A stretch of 64,000 nt of DNA, from positions 124,001 to 188,000 of the IMG/VR virus record IMGVR_UViG_3300020147_000065, one strand, 5' to 3'. The notes below the pieces were generated by a model. The model worked only from the letters and a program-made list of their open reading frames with translations. It was not told where the DNA came from and made no database searches. Position numbers and translations under genes: made by a program. Positions 2,443-13,740 of the stretch are shown one piece after another (the stretch's first letter is position 1; every line of letters begins with the position of its first letter). The DNA is from a virus.

Positions 2443-4481
2443 TAACCAACCTCTTGTTCTCGCCAGTTCTTACCACCGTCGTATGAAATCAGACGATGGG
2501 CTGGGTTCTCCTGGCCTGTTTGTAAACCGTTTATGATAAGTGTAGCTGTGGCCGATTTCATTGTAACGAGGTCGAAACCATATGTGTTTTCTTTTCTTTT
2601 TTCGGCTACGTGCATTATTGGTCCCTCGTTTTTCTGGATAAACAGGTGCTTACCAGACTCACCGAGGTAGTATCTCGCTCCTTGGTACTTTACGCTATCA
2701 AGAATTTTGATTAACTTATTGCCGTCGAAAATTGATTCTCGGAATACTTCACCGTTAAGGAATTGTTCTTCCCAGTGTTTTCCACCATCATGTGATATGA
2801 ATCGGTGGTTCTGTGCGGCAATCGTCATGTAACCACGACCGGGTGTTTGGTCTTCTTCGATGCGATAGTCGTTATCCTTATCTTTTCTACCCACGGGGTA
2901 AATATAATCCCAGCTATCACGACTTGTCTGATAGAATAACCAGTCACCTTTCTCAGCTAATACCTGTATTTCACCGGTATTCTTACGCGTCACATCAAGC
3001 AGTGCGTAACCTTTTTCTTCATTAAACAAGCTTTTCTGAGCATTATCCTGTTTAATGTAGATATAAGGATCATAGTTTCCCATTCCATCCGAAATGTAAA
3101 CACTGATACCGTTGTTTTCTTGAGTCAACGCATAAATGGGTCCACCCCTTTTACGAACGAGTAGAGCGCCACTTGCACCTTTGATGACTTCCTGATGGCC
3201 GATTTCAGAGGTCATATTTCCGGTGTCGTCGGCTATCCTCTTACCGATTGTGATACTACCGTTTGCGTTAGGTTGCACGAGGTGATGTACACGATTGGGT
3301 GTGCGAACACTGCCAACCACGGTATTACCAAGTTCATAAGAAAACTGCCATTCGGCAGCACGTCCTCTTTGTGTGAAAGCAGTCGAGGAAAAGCCGTCCA
3401 TAATCAATTTAAGTTTAGAACCATTTGGAATTCTAAACTTATAGATTGGACTGTACCACCAGCTACTTACGATACCGCCGTTGTCCGTGAACTCGTTACC
3501 GTTGTTCGGGTCCAGTGACCCGAACTCGGCTCTGTTACCCCAAAGCATTGATTTATAGGTTGGATGATCGGGTGTTAGTTGTCCAGGATTCTTATAATTT
3601 AAAACCGTGTCAAGACCACCAATAGTCATTGTCTGTATTTCACTTCGACAATGGTTGTTATTGAAGATTTGAACGCTGATGGCATCACTATAAGTCACTT
3701 CGCTTCCAGAGACAGCTTTGATGCGATAGAAGTATTCCTGTCCAAATTGCGCGGAAGTGTCCGTAAACAAATAGCGTGTAGTAGAACCGGGCTGCAACTG
3801 CATTCCGCCGGGAGGACCAATATTTGGAGCATTCCAGTTAATCGTAATTTGCCCATCCTGGCTACCATTATCAACTCCTCGGTCAATAAATAATTTAACC
3901 GGAGCAGAAGGATCATTAATGTTCTTTGGTAAGCCATCATAAATAATGTTTACACCCTGTTCAGGGGCACCATAAACGTTACTCTTAGCTATCAGTAATG
4001 GTGGATTAGGAATTTCTACAACATAGTCATCAGGAATACGCTGCACACGCTTGGGTTTATATGCATCAGTTCGATCCTGTCCCTCTGTCCATAAGAAGTC
4101 GTTAAGGCTTGCACCGCCCAAACCACCAAAAATGAAGAACATGGCGTTGATACAAATATAAACGCGCTGCCAGAAGATTGTATTTCCACCTGGGTCTTCG
4201 ATACGATACTCGAATACACCCAATTTATTTTGTAATACGATATTGGGAACACTCATTATAGGCGCGACAGCACTCACGGGAGGTAGCATTCCGGCTCCCT
4301 CCCGTGGATAGGCTTCCCAAAAGATATTTTTCTTTAACTGAAATGCGGTGATGTCTCCACCACCGGTATCAAGCTGATAAACCCATATCTTTCGTGTAAC
4401 AAGAGGAGGACCGAGGTCTAAAACTTCCTCGGCCTCATCTGTTGACTTGAATGGTTTCCAGTTTCCAAAAGGTGCTTGCAT
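2442..4481 (-). CDS. Tail protein with fibronectin-III-like region
   Basis: A 679-residue product encoded directly after the tape measure; its ATG overlaps the tape measure stop region. Residues about 165-275 look like a fibronectin type III fold: INWNAP, then YLFTDT, then FGQEYFYRIKAVSGSEVTYSD. This is common in tail-tip and fibre proteins. The C-terminal part (about 400-679) has several Trp- and Gly-rich segments such as SHDGGKHWEEQF and SYDGGKNWREQEV, which resemble Asp-box (S-x-D-x-G-x-x-W) beta-propeller repeats that bind or process glycans. Probable distal tail or receptor-contact protein. The Asp-box reading is by eye only. Confidence 0.8.
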   Translation of the reverse strand: MQAPFGNWKPFKSTDEAEEVLDLGPPLVTRKIWVYQLDTGGGDITAFQLKKNIFWEAYPREGAGMLPPVSAVAPIMSVPNIVLQNKLGVFEYRIEDPGGNTIFWQRVYICINAMFFIFGGLGGASLNDFLWTEGQDRTDAYKPKRVQRIPDDYVVEIPNPPLLIAKSNVYGAPEQGVNIIYDGLPKNINDPSAPVKLFIDRGVDNGSQDGQITINWNAPNIGPPGGMQLQPGSTTRYLFTDTSAQFGQEYFYRIKAVSGSEVTYSDAISVQIFNNNHCRSEIQTMTIGGLDTVLNYKNPGQLTPDHPTYKSMLWGNRAEFGSLDPNNGNEFTDNGGIVSSWWYSPIYKFRIPNGSKLKLIMDGFSSTAFTQRGRAAEWQFSYELGNTVVGSVRTPNRVHHLVQPNANGSITIGKRIADDTGNMTSEIGHQEVIKGASGALLVRKRGGPIYALTQENNGISVYISDGMGNYDPYIYIKQDNAQKSLFNEEKGYALLDVTRKNTGEIQVLAEKGDWLFYQTSRDSWDYIYPVGRKDKDNDYRIEEDQTPGRGYMTIAAQNHRFISHDGGKHWEEQFLNGEVFRESIFDGNKLIKILDSVKYQGARYYLGESGKHLFIQKNEGPIMHVAEKRKENTYGFDLVTMKSATATLIINGLQTGQENPAHRLISYDGGKNWREQEVG

Positions 4482-7400
4482 TACGTAGCCTTATTTAATT
4501 GGAATCGGTCACGCTTAATGACCTGAACGTTTACAGTATAATCTGAGTCCTGCACGTAGTTGGTTTTAACAGCAGGGGTACCAGCGGCAACCGATGCACC
4601 CTGTATTCTTCCCAAACGCTGCATTGCCTCAGCATCGCCACCAGCTTTGTAGTTACCACGACCAAAGTCGTAAGTATCCGCATGATTCAACCTGTTCATC
4701 AAAGTGTTTGGTAACACATGTGAACCTTGAGGTAACATGACCGCTTCTGGACCACGTTCTCCTACGATAGTTAAACCACCGGCAGCACCGCCTCGTGCTC
4801 TCTTTGGAGTGGCCTCAGCAAGAATTTGTGCTTGTCGAGCTAACAAATCTTTACGACGTGCTCCGCTGAATTTACCAAGCTGTGTATCAGCTAACTCGTT
4901 CAAACGAGCTTCGCTTGAAGCCGAAGCGAGTTGCTTGAGAGCTTCAGGTCCCATTACCGCTGAGTACATGTTTACGAAGTTCTCGTCTTTCAAAGCTTGC
5001 ATACCGGAAGTGTTGATTTTCCAGCGAAGTTGTTCTTTATTCAACTTCTGCAAAGCTTCCATCTGCTCTGACTTCTTAACCTGACCCATAGCCAAGGCAC
5101 CTGTGATTCTATCCACATCTTTTGATGTGTAAGCATCTTCGATTTCTGCGTTGGCAAGAAATTCCTGGATTTTTTCTCCTCTTCTTTCATTTGTAATCAA
5201 ACGACTTTTACGGATTTTATCCATTGCTTCTGCGCGTTTTCTTGCTTTCTCTTCAGGAGTCATGTTGACCTTTGCTTTGAGATCATCTCTCAACGCAATT
5301 AGGTTTTCACGAGCTTCGTCGGTTCGCATTTCTGGAGCGGCAAACGCTCCAAAGCTACGAGTCTTAACTCCTTCTTTATAGTCACCTGTAGCCGCGGCAA
5401 TTTGCTCATCAACAACTGTACCGGCAATTTCTTTACGATAACCTGCGATACTCTTGTCAATGTTCTTGGCACTACCATAGGCATTTCTTGAGAAATAAGA
5501 ACCAAAATATGCACCGGGTAGCGAGAATAGGTTTCCGATGGCACCTACCGCTGTTTCAGCAGCCCACCACAATGGGTTCTTCCATGCTCCATTCTTGAAT
5601 GGATTCTTGGCCCATGTTCCTGCGCGACCATAAGAAGCAAAATTTTCCTGCTTCTGTTTCTCGGCCTGTAGTAATGCAATTGCTTGCATACTTTCTGATA
5701 TTCTACCAATAGGCTTACCGTCTGGTCCAACACCACCCATAGTAGCTTCCCATGCCATAGAATCTCGTTCTGTGACGTTAGCCGCAGAGATAAGACCAAA
5801 TGCAACAGGCGCAGCAACAAGTGATGCGGGTCCTGCTGCGGCAGCAATGCCACCCAAACCAAGCCCACCTAACGCTGCTCCTATCTGAGGTAATGCGGTT
5901 ACAGCAACAGCACCGAGCATTTTATTACCCGCACGTCCGCTTCCAACTCCATAACCAAAACCACTACCTTTGAAAAGGTTTAATGAATCCATACGATCAT
6001 CATACCATGAGTCGGTACCGTAGTTTCCTACTCGGCCCATGCGACGTTCGTGTTCTATTCCTGCTTGTTCAACGTCGAGAGTGTCTTTCATTGATAGACC
6101 GGCACCAAGTACCTGACCGGCAGGACCAAGAGCATTGAATATTTTTCCACCGGTACCGCCACCTGCTCGAAGCAGTGTCGCACCGACACCTTCAGTAGCA
6201 AGTCTGCCTGAAGCAAAGTTTCTACCCCACTGTGAACGTGATAATAGGGACGATACTGTACCACCATCCTTTAATGGTGGTACAGCCATTGTTATAGTAG
6301 CTGCTGTAGTAGCACCATCAACAAGTCTGGCTTGATTACGGTATCTTTCGATAATCTCTCTTTCAGCTTTAGCTCTCTGTTGATCGTTTAATCCGGCATC
6401 AAGAGCTTCCATCTCCCTGGCTTGCGCCTGTTGTAGGTAGATGTGAGCGGCCATTTGAAGAGTACCAACGTTACCATAGGCTGCCCATGCACGACTACGG
6501 AATGCACCAACACCACTTCTTGGAGTACCATCTGCTTTTAGACCCAACGCAAGGAAGTCGTTAGCTGTCATTTGTTGATCACCTAACGCGAAATCCCATG
6601 CTCTTTGTCCAAAGCCGCCGACACCTCTTGTGTTGAAACCACCTTGTAGTCCCGCAACACCGGCACCCTGTTGTGCGACGAAGTCCTGGATGGCAAGACG
6701 ATGGTCACGATAACCGCCATCTTCATAGAATCGCTTGTATGCAGCCGACTTTGATACATCACGAGCACCCGAAGAATCTTGTGTTATTCCTTCGAACATA
6801 CTTAGGAAGTCTGCGATAGAGCGACCACCAAAGATGGCTGTGGTGTTACCAACGAGTCCGCGAAGGCGTCGCATACGATATTCGCCGCGCTCGTTTGCTG
6901 ATGCTCCCTCTGATATGTCTAATCGTGTAGAAGCACCAGTCTTACCCTTTTCGTAGTTATCAGGATCAATTAAATTGTTTAATCTGTTACGTAAATTGGT
7001 TGCGTCACCACCACGGGTCTCGGTACGCACGATACGATCCATAAGATCGTTAATTAATTCTGCGTTTCCTCGTCCGGTGAATCGGTTAACGTCATTGCGA
7101 CCTACCTTGGTGGACTTACCTGTACCGAGTACAGCAGCTTCGTTGGCTTTGATAGCCGCAGCAGCTTCAGTAATAGCGTCAACACCGACACTAGCTGGAT
7201 CAGTGTCAATCCAGTTACCACGAGCGTCTACACCGTCAACAGGCATCCATTCACCCGTGGCCGGCAATCTGCGGAACGATTGTTCCATACCATTAGACAA
7301 ACGAGTACGAACAACATGGTTACCACGATAGCGGATGGCTTTTACACCACCTGCTTCGAGGCCAACCACGGATGGATCAAGAATACCTGATCCAGTATTG

Positions 7401-10400
7401 AACCACTCGTTACCAACAGTTGCGTTTCGGTTGATAGCCTGGCTTACACGGAATGACCTGTCTGCACCAACTAATTCTTCTGATACAAAAGAGAATAGAC
7501 GCTGTTGTTCACTTATTCCTGTTGTGGGATCAACAATACCGGCAAGATCACCGATAGCATCACTGAAGCCGAAACCGGCCAACATAGTTTTTCCGCCACC
7601 AACATCTGTACCGGCGAGAATATTAAAACCAGCGCCTCTATGATTAAAAGATGTGGGATTTCCTGTACCGTCAAGTGTAACACCAAATGACTTACGCATT
7701 GTTTCCATTACGTCGTCAAATGATAGGTATCTGTCAGCCGTAGGATGACTGTGCATAACTGTTTGGTTAGCATTGTAATCCCAACCGGTTAATGGATCAA
7801 TTGAAACACTGGATGCATTTCCTGTGTTTGACGATAGAACACCGCGCCCTGCTTGCCATAACACGGCTTGTTCGTTGCCTGTACCGAGCATGGAAGCCAT
7901 TACATCGGCTGTAGCGGTTGAGTGGAAATCGCCGCCTACGGCCCCAGTAGCCGTAGAAGCGGCCTGAGCAAAGGCGAGACGATTACCATATCTTCCGGTA
8001 AACGAACCAGTTGCGTGAGCACTACGAGCAGCAAGAACTACCTGCGCTCTTTCCATATCCTGATCAATTTGAGTATTACGCTGTAGTGCCTGATCGTGTG
8101 CTCTACGCGCGGCATTGTATTGTCTGGTTATCTCAGGATCATTTTCACCAGCATTTATACGGGCGAACAATTCGTTGCGTCGTTCTTGTAGGATGTCTAA
8201 TTGCGTCTTTCCATCGGGACCACGCAGACGAAGCAGATCGCGCTCAATACGAAGTTCATTGAGGTTATGAGCAGCTTCCTGGGCTTCCAGATGACGCAGT
8301 TGATTAGATTTATCCGCACCCAGTGGTCGGTTTAATACCTCAGATATATCACGTTCTTTACGTAAGCTACTTAGTAGATCAGTATCAGGTGCCTGAACAA
8401 CAGATGAACCCGAAAGGATACTTGCTATATCATGAGTACCAGTAGCATAAGTTCTCGATTGTCCACCAAAGGCATTGAACCCGAAGGTCATGCGTGAAAA
8501 CGCTTCCAATCCTCTCTGTGAGAAGCTGGATGCAAGTGCGGTTGTCTTACCGGTTTGAATATCAGGACTCCACTCACCAAAACGAGCGCGGTAGGGTTCA
8601 CCAAGTCGAGTAACAACCTCATTCCATGCGTTTGAACGACGCAGGAAGTTGCTGCTATACTGATCTTGCATCTGCGTATAAAACGCATCTTGTAATGCTG
8701 TATTTTTTCCAGCTTGACGTTGTGCTGCAATATATTCTGCAATACGTGGTTCACTTTGCCATGCAATTAAAGTATTAGGATCAACTGTGTGAGATACACT
8801 TCTCCCAGTCTCAGCTTGCTGTTGTAAAAACGAATCAAAGGTTATAAAAGAGTCTAACGTTGAGTTACGATTTGGCCCACCCACAAAAAGGTTATGGGCC
8901 TTAACTCTTTGTAATAAATCGGCTCTATCTGAATCAGATATACCTCTTTTTAATTCAGGTGGTAATCTTTCTTCAGGTACTTCAAGTAAAACATTTCCAT
9001 TATTATCAAGAAGCGTTTTACCTCTCTGTACCCTAAATCTAGTATCTCTTTCCGCAGAGTCTTCTCTACCAATAGTTGTGGTATAGTTTTCAGGAGAATC
9101 CCCGAAACCGCTTAGTGAACTACCTGTAACAGCCGAGAAAGGTAATCCATGACCAAAGTAGGTATCATTAACATTCTGGTGAATCATGAAGTTACCTGAC
9201 GCATCAGTGTACTTCAACATAGAGTCGGCCCAAACCTCAAATGATCTTTCACCAAGTACTGCTGGTACTCCACCACCACCACGACGGCGTTCAACTAAGT
9301 TTTCCTTGTTGGCTGCTTGTTGTTTCTTTAGATTTTCTAAAAGAGTTTCTCCACCTACGTCAGAAAGGTCTACCCAATCTTGATTGTAAGCTTTTTCACG
9401 GAAACTATTTAATCTTCTTATTGTTTCTTCATTGTCCGGTGATGCAAGAGCAGATTGTTGTAATTGCTGCGCTAATTCCCGCACGAAAATTAACGGGTTA
9501 GCACCACTTTCTCCGTAATTATAACGACCGGAAATTAACCCTTCAACTCTTGGGTCTATGGGGGCCAATTCAGCAGACAGTTGACTTGTTAAAGGACCAG
9601 CTCCTCCTTCACCTGCAATAGCCTCAGCTAATAACATGTAGTTGCGAACATCTGTTTTAGGTGCTTTTCCTTCAGCTTCAAATTGAGAGAATGCTTCAGT
9701 AAATATACCACCCCATTTACCGGCAATTGTTGATGGGGTTCGAGGAACTGTATTAATTTGTGATACAAGATGATTATAGGTTTTTTCAATATAAGAAGCT
9801 TTAGTTGCTTTATCAACCTTCATCCCTTTTGCTTTTAGGTTTTCGTCAACAAAAGTCTTAGCTTGAGCACGTAATTCCTGTGAACGAGTTAGGGCCTTGG
9901 AAGTTATCTCACGATTTGCTTCCATTTCTGTCTTTTGCGCTCGAATAGCGTTGAGTTGAAGTTCGTCTTTTACTACATTCCAGGCGTCATTACCGGTTAA
10001 TGTAGGATCAGCTTGTACCTTCTCCAACATTTTCTGTATAGGATAAGAATAAAATGCTCCTTGTGCATTCGTCTTTCTATCTAAAATACCGAAAACGTGG
10101 GGATCAACATCCATTCCTAATTCTGCCATTAGGAAGCTTGGAATTCCAGTTAAATCAGCAACAGCTCTTCTTTGCTGTTCTTCGTTGAAACTTTTAAGAT
10201 CAGTTCTAAAACCAACTGTACTCGGATGTTGAATCAAAGCCGTCTGCATTTTTTCATGCACAAGATGTTCAGCAGATAAAGAAGGAACACCTTCAAATCC
10301 ACCAATAAGACCACGCATTATTGCATGACCTTGATTATCAAATTCTGTATTTGCTTTTAATGATGCAATAACTCCGGTTTGTGCATTGGTTCTTGCGGCA

Positions 10401-12094
10401 ACACTATCCTTTTTCTTAGCAGCAGCAATAATACTGCGATGTTCATCAGTTCCAGCTAATTTTTTAGCCGTATCCAGGTCCACACTTGTACGATACATGG
10501 ATTGCATATATCGGTCTTGTAAAACCTTGATACCTTTGGCTGCGTTTTCACCCGTAGATTCTTTAATGTCGGACCACAGTTCACCAACAGGTTTATCAAA
10601 TAGTTCTCTTTCAGACGTAGCATCACCGATGGCTTTATGTGGAATACCGGAATTACCAAAGTTATAAGCATCATTGTCTCTAACACGACCTAAACGCTCA
10701 ACTTTATGCATACGGTGATTAGGAATAACATGAGAGCCTTCCGGTAGAACGACAGCCTCAGGTCCACGCTCACCAACAATGGTAAGACCACCTGATTTAC
10801 CACCCATAGCACGGTTTTCTACTTCGTAAAGAGGCTTTGAACGATCTCTCTGAATGTCCGGCTGACCAGGAGAACGTAATTCTCTAATTCTGATGGGAGG
10901 ACCACCAGTATCATCCGGTGCTTCGATTTGACCGGAAGCAATAGCACGAAGAATAGGACGGTTATCTTCGCCTGGGAATTGTAGACGCTCTTTTTGACGA
11001 CGCTCAATTTCAGCACGAGCAGCCTGACCGAACAAGTCCTTTGTGTCAAGTTCTTGACGAGAGGTGCCGAAACGCTCTTTCATCTCGTCGTTTTCTTTAC
11101 TGGACTGTCCTTTCAAGTATCTACCAAGCATGTAGGTACCAAGAGTAGCAGCACCAACAAGTGGCATAACACGCTTCATCATGAAGCCGCCAAAGCTACC
11201 CTGGAACTGTCCAGACATCAATGAAGCAGTATACATAGCTGTGCTGAAACGCATGATAGGTCCAGCAGCCGCACCGAACATGAGGGCCGTAAACTGGATT
11301 TCGGGGCCTAAGCCACCGAAAGCCTTAACCATCTTGTTGGCGATAGGGATAACGTCTCGGCCCATCTTGATGGCACCGAAGATAACGTCCTGCATAGCAA
11401 TACCAAAGTCAGCAAGTTCTTTGGTATAGGCTGCCATAACCAGACGCCCCTGGTTGGCCGCAGAAGTAGGATACGACTTTAAGAAGTCACCCTGAGCGTT
11501 CTGCGTCTGGTTCATGATTTCACCGAAGGCTGCAAGAACCTTCTGTTGCTTATTTAATTCAGAACCAACTTCAGCAATACCGTTTTTGTATGCGTAGTTC
11601 TTTAGTGTTGTCTGGTCAAGCGACACACCATAAGAGTACAAAGCACGGGTGTTACCGATCATACCTGACGCGAGGTTGGTCATAACCCTTTCTACAGGTA
11701 AGTCATAGTACGAGGACATGTCAATGCCCAACTGTACCATAGCCTTCGACATTTCCAGAGCTTCTCCGCGAGGAATCTTCAAAGCTGTGGCCAGGTTCAT
11801 GAAGATAGCAGCCTGACGACGAACCTCATATTCGTTCATCGAACTGGCTTTACCAAGACGTTCAGAGAAGTCCTGAATATCTTTGTACATGTTACCGAAT
11901 GTACGACCGGCAAGGTTTTCTGATTCTAATACGGCAGAACCGAACTTTACTCCGAAAGCGGCTGCCGCCATTTCCATCGAGGAGAATGCTTCACCGACAA
12001 ACTGTGCTCCAGTGGCAAAAGCCATACTGTTTGTTTGGGCAGTTGTGCCAAGGCGTCCGTACTGTTGACCAACGGTACGGAGCTGGTTCATCAT
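4481..12094 (-). CDS. Tape measure protein, 2537 residues
   Basis: By far the longest gene. It lies after the tail-tube and chaperone candidates, as tape measure genes do, and would set tail length and be ejected with the DNA. Residues 1-330 are Ala/Gly/Met-rich helix with hydrophobic stretches. The motif GGLTIVGERGPEAV, typical of tape measure C-termini, occurs at about residue 435 and again at about 2439. Near residue 1448 an HSHP-x6-S-x-x-D pattern matches the JAMM/MPN+ metalloprotease signature. Hydrophobic segments lie near 2055-2118 and 2170-2210 and could act in membrane penetration. A group I intron ends at or just before the ATG, so the mature start may be altered by splicing. At about 3 A per residue it predicts an unusually long tail. 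Confidence 0.93.
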   Translation of the reverse strand: MMNQLRTVGQQYGRLGTTAQTNSMAFATGAQFVGEAFSSMEMAAAAFGVKFGSAVLESENLAGRTFGNMYKDIQDFSERLGKASSMNEYEVRRQAAIFMNLATALKIPRGEALEMSKAMVQLGIDMSSYYDLPVERVMTNLASGMIGNTRALYSYGVSLDQTTLKNYAYKNGIAEVGSELNKQQKVLAAFGEIMNQTQNAQGDFLKSYPTSAANQGRLVMAAYTKELADFGIAMQDVIFGAIKMGRDVIPIANKMVKAFGGLGPEIQFTALMFGAAAGPIMRFSTAMYTASLMSGQFQGSFGGFMMKRVMPLVGAATLGTYMLGRYLKGQSSKENDEMKERFGTSRQELDTKDLFGQAARAEIERRQKERLQFPGEDNRPILRAIASGQIEAPDDTGGPPIRIRELRSPGQPDIQRDRSKPLYEVENRAMGGKSGGLTIVGERGPEAVVLPEGSHVIPNHRMHKVERLGRVRDNDAYNFGNSGIPHKAIGDATSERELFDKPVGELWSDIKESTGENAAKGIKVLQDRYMQSMYRTSVDLDTAKKLAGTDEHRSIIAAAKKKDSVAARTNAQTGVIASLKANTEFDNQGHAIMRGLIGGFEGVPSLSAEHLVHEKMQTALIQHPSTVGFRTDLKSFNEEQQRRAVADLTGIPSFLMAELGMDVDPHVFGILDRKTNAQGAFYSYPIQKMLEKVQADPTLTGNDAWNVVKDELQLNAIRAQKTEMEANREITSKALTRSQELRAQAKTFVDENLKAKGMKVDKATKASYIEKTYNHLVSQINTVPRTPSTIAGKWGGIFTEAFSQFEAEGKAPKTDVRNYMLLAEAIAGEGGAGPLTSQLSAELAPIDPRVEGLISGRYNYGESGANPLIFVRELAQQLQQSALASPDNEETIRRLNSFREKAYNQDWVDLSDVGGETLLENLKKQQAANKENLVERRRGGGGVPAVLGERSFEVWADSMLKYTDASGNFMIHQNVNDTYFGHGLPFSAVTGSSLSGFGDSPENYTTTIGREDSAERDTRFRVQRGKTLLDNNGNVLLEVPEERLPPELKRGISDSDRADLLQRVKAHNLFVGGPNRNSTLDSFITFDSFLQQQAETGRSVSHTVDPNTLIAWQSEPRIAEYIAAQRQAGKNTALQDAFYTQMQDQYSSNFLRRSNAWNEVVTRLGEPYRARFGEWSPDIQTGKTTALASSFSQRGLEAFSRMTFGFNAFGGQSRTYATGTHDIASILSGSSVVQAPDTDLLSSLRKERDISEVLNRPLGADKSNQLRHLEAQEAAHNLNELRIERDLLRLRGPDGKTQLDILQERRNELFARINAGENDPEITRQYNAARRAHDQALQRNTQIDQDMERAQVVLAARSAHATGSFTGRYGNRLAFAQAASTATGAVGGDFHSTATADVMASMLGTGNEQAVLWQAGRGVLSSNTGNASSVSIDPLTGWDYNANQTVMHSHPTADRYLSFDDVMETMRKSFGVTLDGTGNPTSFNHRGAGFNILAGTDVGGGKTMLAGFGFSDAIGDLAGIVDPTTGISEQQRLFSFVSEELVGADRSFRVSQAINRNATVGNEWFNTGSGILDPSVVGLEAGGVKAIRYRGNHVVRTRLSNGMEQSFRRLPATGEWMPVDGVDARGNWIDTDPASVGVDAITEAAAAIKANEAAVLGTGKSTKVGRNDVNRFTGRGNAELINDLMDRIVRTETRGGDATNLRNRLNNLIDPDNYEKGKTGASTRLDISEGASANERGEYRMRRLRGLVGNTTAIFGGRSIADFLSMFEGITQDSSGARDVSKSAAYKRFYEDGGYRDHRLAIQDFVAQQGAGVAGLQGGFNTRGVGGFGQRAWDFALGDQQMTANDFLALGLKADGTPRSGVGAFRSRAWAAYGNVGTLQMAAHIYLQQAQAREMEALDAGLNDQQRAKAEREIIERYRNQARLVDGATTAATITMAVPPLKDGGTVSSLLSRSQWGRNFASGRLATEGVGATLLRAGGGTGGKIFNALGPAGQVLGAGLSMKDTLDVEQAGIEHERRMGRVGNYGTDSWYDDRMDSLNLFKGSGFGYGVGSGRAGNKMLGAVAVTALPQIGAALGGLGLGGIAAAAGPASLVAAPVAFGLISAANVTERDSMAWEATMGGVGPDGKPIGRISESMQAIALLQAEKQKQENFASYGRAGTWAKNPFKNGAWKNPLWWAAETAVGAIGNLFSLPGAYFGSYFSRNAYGSAKNIDKSIAGYRKEIAGTVVDEQIAAATGDYKEGVKTRSFGAFAAPEMRTDEARENLIALRDDLKAKVNMTPEEKARKRAEAMDKIRKSRLITNERRGEKIQEFLANAEIEDAYTSKDVDRITGALAMGQVKKSEQMEALQKLNKEQLRWKINTSGMQALKDENFVNMYSAVMGPEALKQLASASSEARLNELADTQLGKFSGARRKDLLARQAQILAEATPKRARGGAAGGLTIVGERGPEAVMLPQGSHVLPNTLMNRLNHADTYDFGRGNYKAGGDAEAMQRLGRIQGASVAAGTPAVKTNYVQDSDYTVNVQVIKRDRFQLNKAT

Positions 12095-12112
12095 CTGGTT
12101 ATCAGGTGTTAT

Positions 12113-13213
12113 CGTGTGGGCTTTTTATCCCTCACTTCTTATAGTTTCCTATAAGTTCAGCATATATTTTCATCCTAATAGGATGTTCGGCACTCGTGGA
12201 GGGATTATATTCTTGAAAGTTTCACCCTCTATGCGTTACACTGATCTGAACTCTTTAATTTTCAGATTTAGCTCGGTATTCCCATGGTTACCTTTAGGGT
12301 TCACCGATTTTGCCGAATTTTCACCAATAAATTACTTTATTGGGGACCATAACCTTAGTGATTTAGCCACTTAACACAAATCTAGTTGCAAGGATGTCGG
12401 TGATTTGCAATCTGTTTACCTCTGTAAAACTTTATTCCATTTTCTTTGTAGTAAAGGAAGTCTTGAGTCGACCTGTGCTACAAAATCTTTTGTTTGCTCT
12501 TTAGTAAATCTCAATCTAAAAATAGAATTGAAAGCACCAAATGAACAAGGATACTGTACCATTGTCCCAATCCAACTGACCACTTTTGATGTTCCCAAGA
12601 AACTCATAGTTTTATTAGTTTCTACGTATCCATCACCATCAAATAATCCACATACGAATGCTATACTACATTCATGATTCAAATTTGTTGGTGGCTCAAG
12701 TATTAAAGACTTAGCAGGGATAATTCCAAAGTTTTCCTTCAGATCTTTAATCCACTGTGCTGCTCCACAAACAGTTAATCTTGTCCAGGGTCGAGGATTT
12801 GTTTTAGAAAATCCTCTATCATTCATGCCCTCATACAATTTCCCGTTAAAACCTACCTGAGACGCAAAAAGTTCCAGATGAACTTTATCTTTGCTATCCA
12901 GTTGGACTGATACTTGTTTATTTCTTGGGGTATCAATTATCCAACCGTCTGCGGCTAAGAACCCTGCCCAATAACTATTCAAAGGTGTTGGGTAAGTAAA
13001 GAAAGAAGAATCATACTCTAATTTCTTGTTCTTTTTACCGATAGCTGATTTAGCACATCTGGAACATTTCCAGTTTTCTTTTACGTATTGACGCTTTGTT
13101 TCTTTCTCAAGATTACAATCAGGACATTTCACGCAGACTAGTTTGTTAGAGCCTGATGAAAGTTCTAAGGGATTGTAACCAAAAGTAGACAAAGTTTTCT
13201 CGAACATTATCAT
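12113..13213 (-). ncRNA. Group I intron (IA-like) carrying a homing endonuclease gene
   Basis: Reading the minus strand, a full group I core is present. P3 pairs 12311-12317 with 12186-12192 (7 bp). P4 pairs 12303-12306 with 12274-12277, and P5 12297-12299 with 12281-12283. P6 pairs 12270-12273 with 12249-12252, and P7 12246-12250 with 12156-12160. A P7.1-type hairpin (GAGGG/CCCUC) lies between P7 and P3'. P8 is 12171-12185. P9 is a 7-bp stem with a GAAA loop at 12138-12155. P1 can form between exon GUUUGCU ending at 13214 and the guide GGUAAAC at 12414-12420, with a U-G pair exactly at the 5' splice site. The endonuclease gene fills the P1 loop. The 3' splice site is after the G at 12113, or possibly 12095. 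Confidence 0.9.
12416..13213 (-). CDS. LAGLIDADG homing endonuclease (intron-encoded)
   Basis: A 265-residue protein with an N-terminal zinc ribbon (CVKCPDC about residues 28-34, then CSRC about 50-53) followed by two intact LAGLIDADG helices, SYWAGFLAADGW (about 80-91) and AFVCGLFDGDG (about 190-200). Both catalytic aspartates are present, so it is probably active. It would cut intron-less tape measure loci and spread the intron. The ATG is the first three bases of the predicted intron, and the stop codon lies inside the intron's guide sequence. An ATG six bases downstream (MFEK) is an alternative start. Confidence 0.93.
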   Translation of the reverse strand: MIMFEKTLSTFGYNPLELSSGSNKLVCVKCPDCNLEKETKRQYVKENWKCSRCAKSAIGKKNKKLEYDSSFFTYPTPLNSYWAGFLAADGWIIDTPRNKQVSVQLDSKDKVHLELFASQVGFNGKLYEGMNDRGFSKTNPRPWTRLTVCGAAQWIKDLKENFGIIPAKSLILEPPTNLNHECSIAFVCGLFDGDGYVETNKTMSFLGTSKVVSWIGTMVQYPCSFGAFNSIFRLRFTKEQTKDFVAQVDSRLPLLQRKWNKVLQR

Positions 13214-13227
13214 AGCAAACCAGACAC

Positions 13228-13740
13228 TTAATAGTTTTTCAGGTTGCTCTTTATCTTATCCAAGTTCTTACAGTATTCTTCTACACCCTTCATTGTAAAA
13301 GTAGTATGTACAGCGTCTTTTGTTGTGTAACCTAAATCTGCGATTGTTGCGTAGATGTTGTATAAACGCTCCAATCGGATTGCCCGTTTTTCGTTAAGTG
13401 GAGAACTGTAGCTTCTATCGAGCACAAGTAATCGGGCACCGACAATTTCTCGTATATTATCTGAAGTAGAAAGACCTTTTTCGTCAATAAGTCTTCGTAC
13501 TTCTTTTTCGTTCAGAAGAATACCTTCATTTCTCATCTCTGACGTTTGTCCAACAAGTAAGCTTCGTAAGATTAAATGAGCCACAATATCATGTGGTTTA
13601 TCAAATATTTTAGCTATCCACACAACGAGATGAACACCTGTGTGCGCGTTCTTACGAGCGTCGGCTTCCGTAAAGCCGACGGCTTTGAAGAGATGAAAAA
13701 ATCTGATAAAGTGTTTTTGAGCCAAGAATTCAAGTAACAT
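13228..13740 (-). CDS. Hypothetical tail-module protein
   Basis: A 170-residue, mostly helical protein between the chaperone candidates and the tape measure. No family was recognised. It carries LAQKHFIRFFHLF at the N-terminus and a long charged helix near residues 95-145 (LNEKEVRRLIDEKG and onward). Its stop lies 15 bp before the 5' splice site of the group I intron, so its 3' end forms part of the intron's upstream exon. Position suggests a tail assembly factor, possibly a chaperone for the tape measure; this is inference. Confidence 0.75.
   Translation of the reverse strand: MLLEFLAQKHFIRFFHLFKAVGFTEADARKNAHTGVHLVVWIAKIFDKPHDIVAHLILRSLLVGQTSEMRNEGILLNEKEVRRLIDEKGLSTSDNIREIVGARLLVLDRSYSSPLNEKRAIRLERLYNIYATIADLGYTTKDAVHTTFTMKGVEEYCKNLDKIKSNLKNY

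Follow-up and report, generated by a model that had tools for sequence, protein, structure and literature searches.

The tape measure gene in this stretch of viral DNA very probably contains, close to its start, a small group I intron at 12364-12103, in which one internal guide forms both P1 and P10, and the LAGLIDADG endonuclease gene next to it appears to be a free-standing neighbor that would drive homing. The window, meaning the whole 64,000-nucleotide stretch that was analyzed, belongs to a 221-kb virus record, and on its minus strand the gene order is a 170-amino-acid open reading frame (ORF), a LAGLIDADG ORF, a group I intron core, and the tape measure ORF. A first-pass annotation had drawn the intron from 13214 to 12095; we correct this to 12364-12103, a length of 262 nt that excludes the endonuclease gene. 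The features of the locus are as follows.

13228-13740, minus strand: 170-amino-acid ORF upstream of the endonuclease gene, at the position where tail assembly chaperones usually lie
12416-13213, minus strand: LAGLIDADG endonuclease gene, read as a separate cistron outside the intron (Pfam LAGLIDADG_3, E 2.7e-8)
12365-12410, minus strand: predicted tape measure exon 1, with a TTG start, encoding MQITDILATRFVLSG plus one base; open and in frame with exon 2
12103-12364, minus strand: predicted group I intron, 262 nt, without an endonuclease gene; 3' end from homology to JCL1032 and TPWB06, both sites from P1 plus P10
12345-12354, minus strand: internal guide 5'-GGUUAU.GGUC-3', with 10 contiguous pairs to the ligated exons, GGCU joined to AUAACC
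12349-12354, minus strand: P10 half of the guide, GGUUAU
12345-12348, minus strand: P1 half of the guide, GGUC
12138-12343, minus strand: core helices P2 to P9, from the RF00028 alignment and a helix check
4481-12102, minus strand: tape measure exon 2, beginning AT AAC CAG ATG ATG, from PHROG tape measure matches and tblastn

That a group I intron lies on the minus strand at the tape measure start, as first proposed, is borne out by an Rfam match to RF00028 at 12374-12138. The match scores 56 bits (E 3.3e-13) where the gathering score is 50, and spans the complete model (positions 1 to 253); the 221-kb record as a whole has no other match to RF00028. A gathering run over the whole window did not return the core, though its score exceeds the threshold; the fast filters probably missed it. 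The earlier statement that helices P3 to P9 can all be drawn holds as well and extends to P2, with nearly all pairs standard. The conserved P3 to P8 core is present, including the G-binding helix P7. The strands of the helices, all on the minus strand, are as follows.

P2: 12343-12336 with 12331-12324
P3: 12317-12311 with 12192-12186
P4: 12307-12303 with 12277-12273
P5: 12299-12297 with 12283-12281
P6: 12267-12261 with 12250-12244
P7: 12234-12230 with 12164-12160
P7.1: 12229-12225 with 12203-12199 (GAGGG with CCCTC)
P8: 12185-12179 with 12177-12171
P9: 12155-12149 with 12144-12138

The mark of subgroup IA is a P7.1/P7.2 insert between the 5' strand of P7 and the 3' strand of P3. A P7.1 helix is found at that place in this intron, which is subgroup IA-like and predicted from its sequence to be self-splicing.

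The 3' boundary was set by comparison with related introns, which were analyzed by sequence motif because an Rfam search of ten relative loci, pooled, gave no match at E 0.001. The 3' part of the intron is common to many phage introns by BLAST, up to about 12107. The Lactobacillus phage JCL1032 terminase intron ends CACAAATG, followed by AAAACTACG, with the spliced product MGRKNGKTTL (P1 6, P10 6), and the TPWB06 tape measure intron ends CAAAATG, followed by AATAACATG (P1 5, P10 8). In both relatives, applying this P1/P10 rule gives an in-frame join of coding exons, and the intron of bajarodcaudo virus 2 follows the same rule (P1 6, P10 4). The junction in the present sequence, CACCTG followed by ATAACCAG, is the counterpart of the JCL1032 and TPWB06 intron ends, so that G12103 is the last intron base; the intron thus ends in G, at a position fixed by homology to relatives whose introns lie between coding exons. 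The previously drawn 3' site, 12095/12094, was ruled out, as both the relatives and P10 indicate 12103/12102.

The guide lies directly 5' of P2. Its GGUC half pairs with the 5' exon end GGCU (exon end 12365) to form P1 with a U.G pair at the 5' splice site, and its GGUUAU half pairs with AUAACC, the start of the 3' exon at 12102, to form a perfect 6-bp P10. It stands 39 nt before the core, measured to the P4 motif, compared with 39 to 41 nt in relatives with a P2 helix and 20 to 21 nt in those without one. When random placements were searched within the same limits, 0.2% of them, or 0.7% when four 3' sites were permitted, scored as high as the observed combination of a compact P1, a P10, and a guide at the distance typical of the family; of random 3' exons tried against the real guide, 0.1% did so. 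P1 at 12365 is short, with four pairs, two of them wobble, besides an intron-side extension, and the guide pairs equally well or better with other 5' sites, so pairing alone is not unique for the 5' exon. Three further observations favor 12365: a P1 hairpin stands beside P2, where the RF00028 model places its P1 stem; ORF-less relatives have compact P1 loops; and the reading frame fits. With both exon ends held by the one guide, splicing would join GGCU to AUAACC and restore MQITDILATRFVLSGYNQMMNQLRTV; the ligated, intron-less site would read TTTGTGTTAAGTGGCTATAACCAGATGATG.

The gene model that follows from these sites puts the intron after codon 15 of the tape measure gene. Exon 1 and the junction read TTG CAA ATC ACC GAC ATC CTT GCA ACT AGA TTT GTG TTA AGT GGC T/AT AAC CAG ATG, with the slash marking the splice, and the spliced product would begin MQITDILATRFVLSG followed directly by YNQMMNQLRTV. 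In unspliced RNA an in-frame TAA is formed by the last base of exon 1 and the first two bases of the intron, and translation would stop there after 15 codons, so a full-length tape measure protein needs splicing. TTG 12410 is the probable start codon: AGAGG stands at 12423-12419, eight bases 5' of it, GAGGT also precedes it, and the terminase gene of the same record likewise starts with TTG, behind AGGAG. Exon 2 has tblastn matches to Gordonia and Arthrobacter tape measure genes. The exon 1 peptide resembles other tape measure N termini by eye only, as a hydrophobic strand and then a helix; alone it gave no profile match, and its addition to the query gained only 2 bits against PHROG 1535. A tblastn search of phages with the 66-amino-acid tape measure N terminus gave no match, a search for an uninterrupted N terminus found no close intron-less relative, and none was confirmed in IMG/VR with tape measure and endonuclease peptide queries. 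A degenerate core incapable of splicing, with the tape measure protein starting at ATG 12094, is a highly improbable reading; that ATG does open a long ORF, but every helix is intact, P1 and P10 fit the exons, and a search for Shine-Dalgarno sequences found none before ATG 12094, nor any before the endonuclease ATG.

The endonuclease gene lies upstream of exon 1, and its stop codon touches the tape measure ribosome-binding site. Its product matches phrog_4645 (endonuclease; E 5e-23) and carries two LAGLIDADG motifs, WAGFLAADG and FVCGLFDGDG, with their acidic residues and two separate LAGLIDADG matches, behind an N-terminal segment with CxxC...CxxC. The first-pass annotation had placed this whole gene in the P1 loop, with the 5' exon GUUUGCU, ending at 13214, paired to a guide that holds the endonuclease stop codon. 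The match of GUUUGCU to GGUAAAC and the stop codon within it are present in the sequence; its role as P1 did not stand. Among U.G-anchored pairings at 5' sites from 13400 to 13100 it ranks seventh, six others scoring higher, and it counts among several similar pairings attributable to chance. This site gave zero P10 pairs with every 3' exon tested, a 5' exon ending at 13214 offers no start codon in an open tape measure frame, and with such a P1 the distance between guide and core would be 111 nt, against 39 to 41 nt. These four results together place the endonuclease gene most likely outside the intron, as do the preferred guide and both splice sites, since the guide and the best-supported 5' site are downstream of the gene. 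A 5' site at 13214/13213, with splicing picking which protein is translated, is accordingly given very little credence, even though the 7-bp match is U.G anchored, the stop of the 170-amino-acid ORF lies 14 nt 5' of the endonuclease ATG, and P1-loop endonucleases in the relatives phi116 and MT835539 show that the layout is possible in this intron subfamily; although P1 of MT835539 holds the endonuclease, its guide still lies 41 nt from the core. Nor does the arrangement support a choice by splicing between endonuclease and tape measure behind a shared exon, as the two genes form distinct cistrons and each has a start of its own.

The endonuclease would also fall in the P1 loop if the guide at 12348 were paired with a 5' exon ending in GUCUGGUU and translated from GTG 13227, directly after the stop of the 170-amino-acid ORF, to give (M)SGYNQMMNQLRT. 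This site is in frame with exon 2, forms four pairs (GGUU with GGUC), and has the layout seen in MT835539; but its P1 would consist of one standard and three wobble pairs, without an intron-side extension, no Shine-Dalgarno sequence precedes the start, and exon 1 with its own Shine-Dalgarno sequence and P1 hairpin would be left unexplained. Segment 13260-13195 resembles the ligated site no better than expected by chance, 11% of random segments matching as well. We consider this arrangement improbable, if slightly less so than the other alternatives weighed here.

Another arrangement would take the 170-amino-acid ORF as tape measure exon 1 and enclose the endonuclease within one large intron. 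TPWB06 and Javan355 do have a long tape measure exon 1, and some in-frame 5' sites, for example 13674 and 13335, pair with the guide. The frame nevertheless stays open past all such sites to its own stop, there is no P1 hairpin, and the short pairings are of a chance kind found at many sites in the region, which makes this reading very unlikely. The ORF itself matched no phage sequence and no PHROG family. A +1 fusion of it to the tape measure gene was considered and has no supporting evidence. Immediately upstream, two adjacent ORFs of 243 and 230 amino acids (window 15166-13743, minus strand) have similar-looking segments and no family match; possibly they are duplicated tail proteins or chaperones.

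In the preferred reading, the 262-nt intron and the separate endonuclease gene are likeliest, as judged from the sequence, to be a homing partnership or the remnant of one. An ORF-less intron beside a free-standing endonuclease gene is the layout of collaborative homing, and endonucleases related to the product of 12416-13213 sit inside introns of the same subfamily. The upstream LAGLIDADG endonuclease would most likely drive homing of the locus, and its target may be either the empty intron site, as in collaborative homing, or its own flanking site. A 7-bp inverted repeat across the 13214 junction, TCTGGTT/AACCAGA, was rejected as a LAGLIDADG target, its arms not being adjacent in the corrected site. 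The G+C content is 0.38 for the intron and 0.36 for the endonuclease gene, against 0.46 for the tape measure gene, as expected for mobile DNA, and is equally low (0.38) in the 170-amino-acid ORF. More tentatively, and with less than even probability, a collaborative pair may converge where the tape measure gene begins, with tape measure translation coupled to the stop codon of the endonuclease gene. In a less likely variant, GUCUGGUU, ahead of the endonuclease gene, and 12365 would compete as 5' splice sites for a single guide, the first including the endonuclease and the second excluding it.

Other features of the record were noted in passing. The terminase large subunit (window 24930-22183, minus strand) appears to hold an intein within Walker A (junctions SSGK/CKAESDW and LYEHN/SYLAGAL), which gave a separate LAGLIDADG match at 33 bits. 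A boundary element occurs in 69 copies on the plus strand of the window (31925-63394, median spacing 422 bases), and in the 221-kb record its motif also appears at 3 kb and continues to about 193 kb. It often begins with a stem-loop, followed by TG, a striking tract of 7 to 11 C residues, TTG[C/T], about 17 to 20 bases, and a TAtAAT-like hexamer, often with an ATG close after; it resembles a terminator joined to a sigma-70-type promoter, one per small gene, with the poly-C tract abutting the -35 box. The motif CCCCGTGG recurs at 16 places from 21083 to 60576 of the window, often near boundary elements, as in CCCCGTGGTTTGCTT.

The locus provides a corrected gene model for the tape measure gene of a large phage, with a TTG start and a first exon of 15 codons. 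It also offers a case in which a LAGLIDADG gene stands next to an intron, where relatives of the subfamily keep related endonucleases within the P1 loop; adjacent pairs of this sort are relevant to the gain and loss of endonucleases by mobile introns. The closest comparison by sequence is the JCL1032 terminase intron, which has the same 3' part by BLAST, the same P1/P10 rule, a compact P1 loop, and an ORF-less core; the intron described here differs in lying in a tape measure gene and in having a P2 hairpin. Introns of the same subfamily also interrupt the tape measure genes annotated in TPWB06 and Javan355. The intron of Arcanobacterium phage TPWB06 shares the gene type and a perfect P10, but has another insertion point, a long exon 1, and no endonuclease gene annotated alongside in the stretch fetched. 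The terminase introns of MT835539 and phi116 are of the same subfamily with related LAGLIDADG proteins, yet hold their endonuclease in the P1 loop: in MT835539 the 5' site is 862 nt from the guide with the LAGLIDADG ORF between, and in phi116 it is 897 nt away, where the guide assignment is weaker and without P10. At positions 1448-2552 of the MT835539 locus (L008), the LAGLIDADG ORF in the P1 loop runs through the guide, P2, and P4 into P6.

Tape measure genes are not the unusual intron site that the first-pass annotation took them for; they are frequently interrupted (PMC10448857), as the TPWB06 and Javan355 introns also illustrate. The ICP1 tape measure gene has three introns by RNA-seq and RT-PCR (PMC10448857), spliced introns that interrupt it as we predict here, but there HNH-3 endonucleases lie inside the introns, whereas here a LAGLIDADG gene lies outside. 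Introns in capsid and tail genes (PMC3706429) and endonucleases beside ORF-less introns (PMC3984707) were already known, and ICP1 terL lies beside a T5orf172 gene in the same side-by-side layout, for which collaborative homing or endonuclease turnover was offered as the origin (PMC10448857). The collaborative homing pairs of T3/T7-like phages and a cyanophage (PMC10448857, PMC3984707) likewise combine an ORF-less group I intron with a free-standing endonuclease gene; the candidate pair described here differs in that the enzyme is of the LAGLIDADG type and its gene lies upstream of the first exon. Tape measure introns and intron-adjacent endonucleases have thus both been published (PMC10448857), and this locus adds a new instance.
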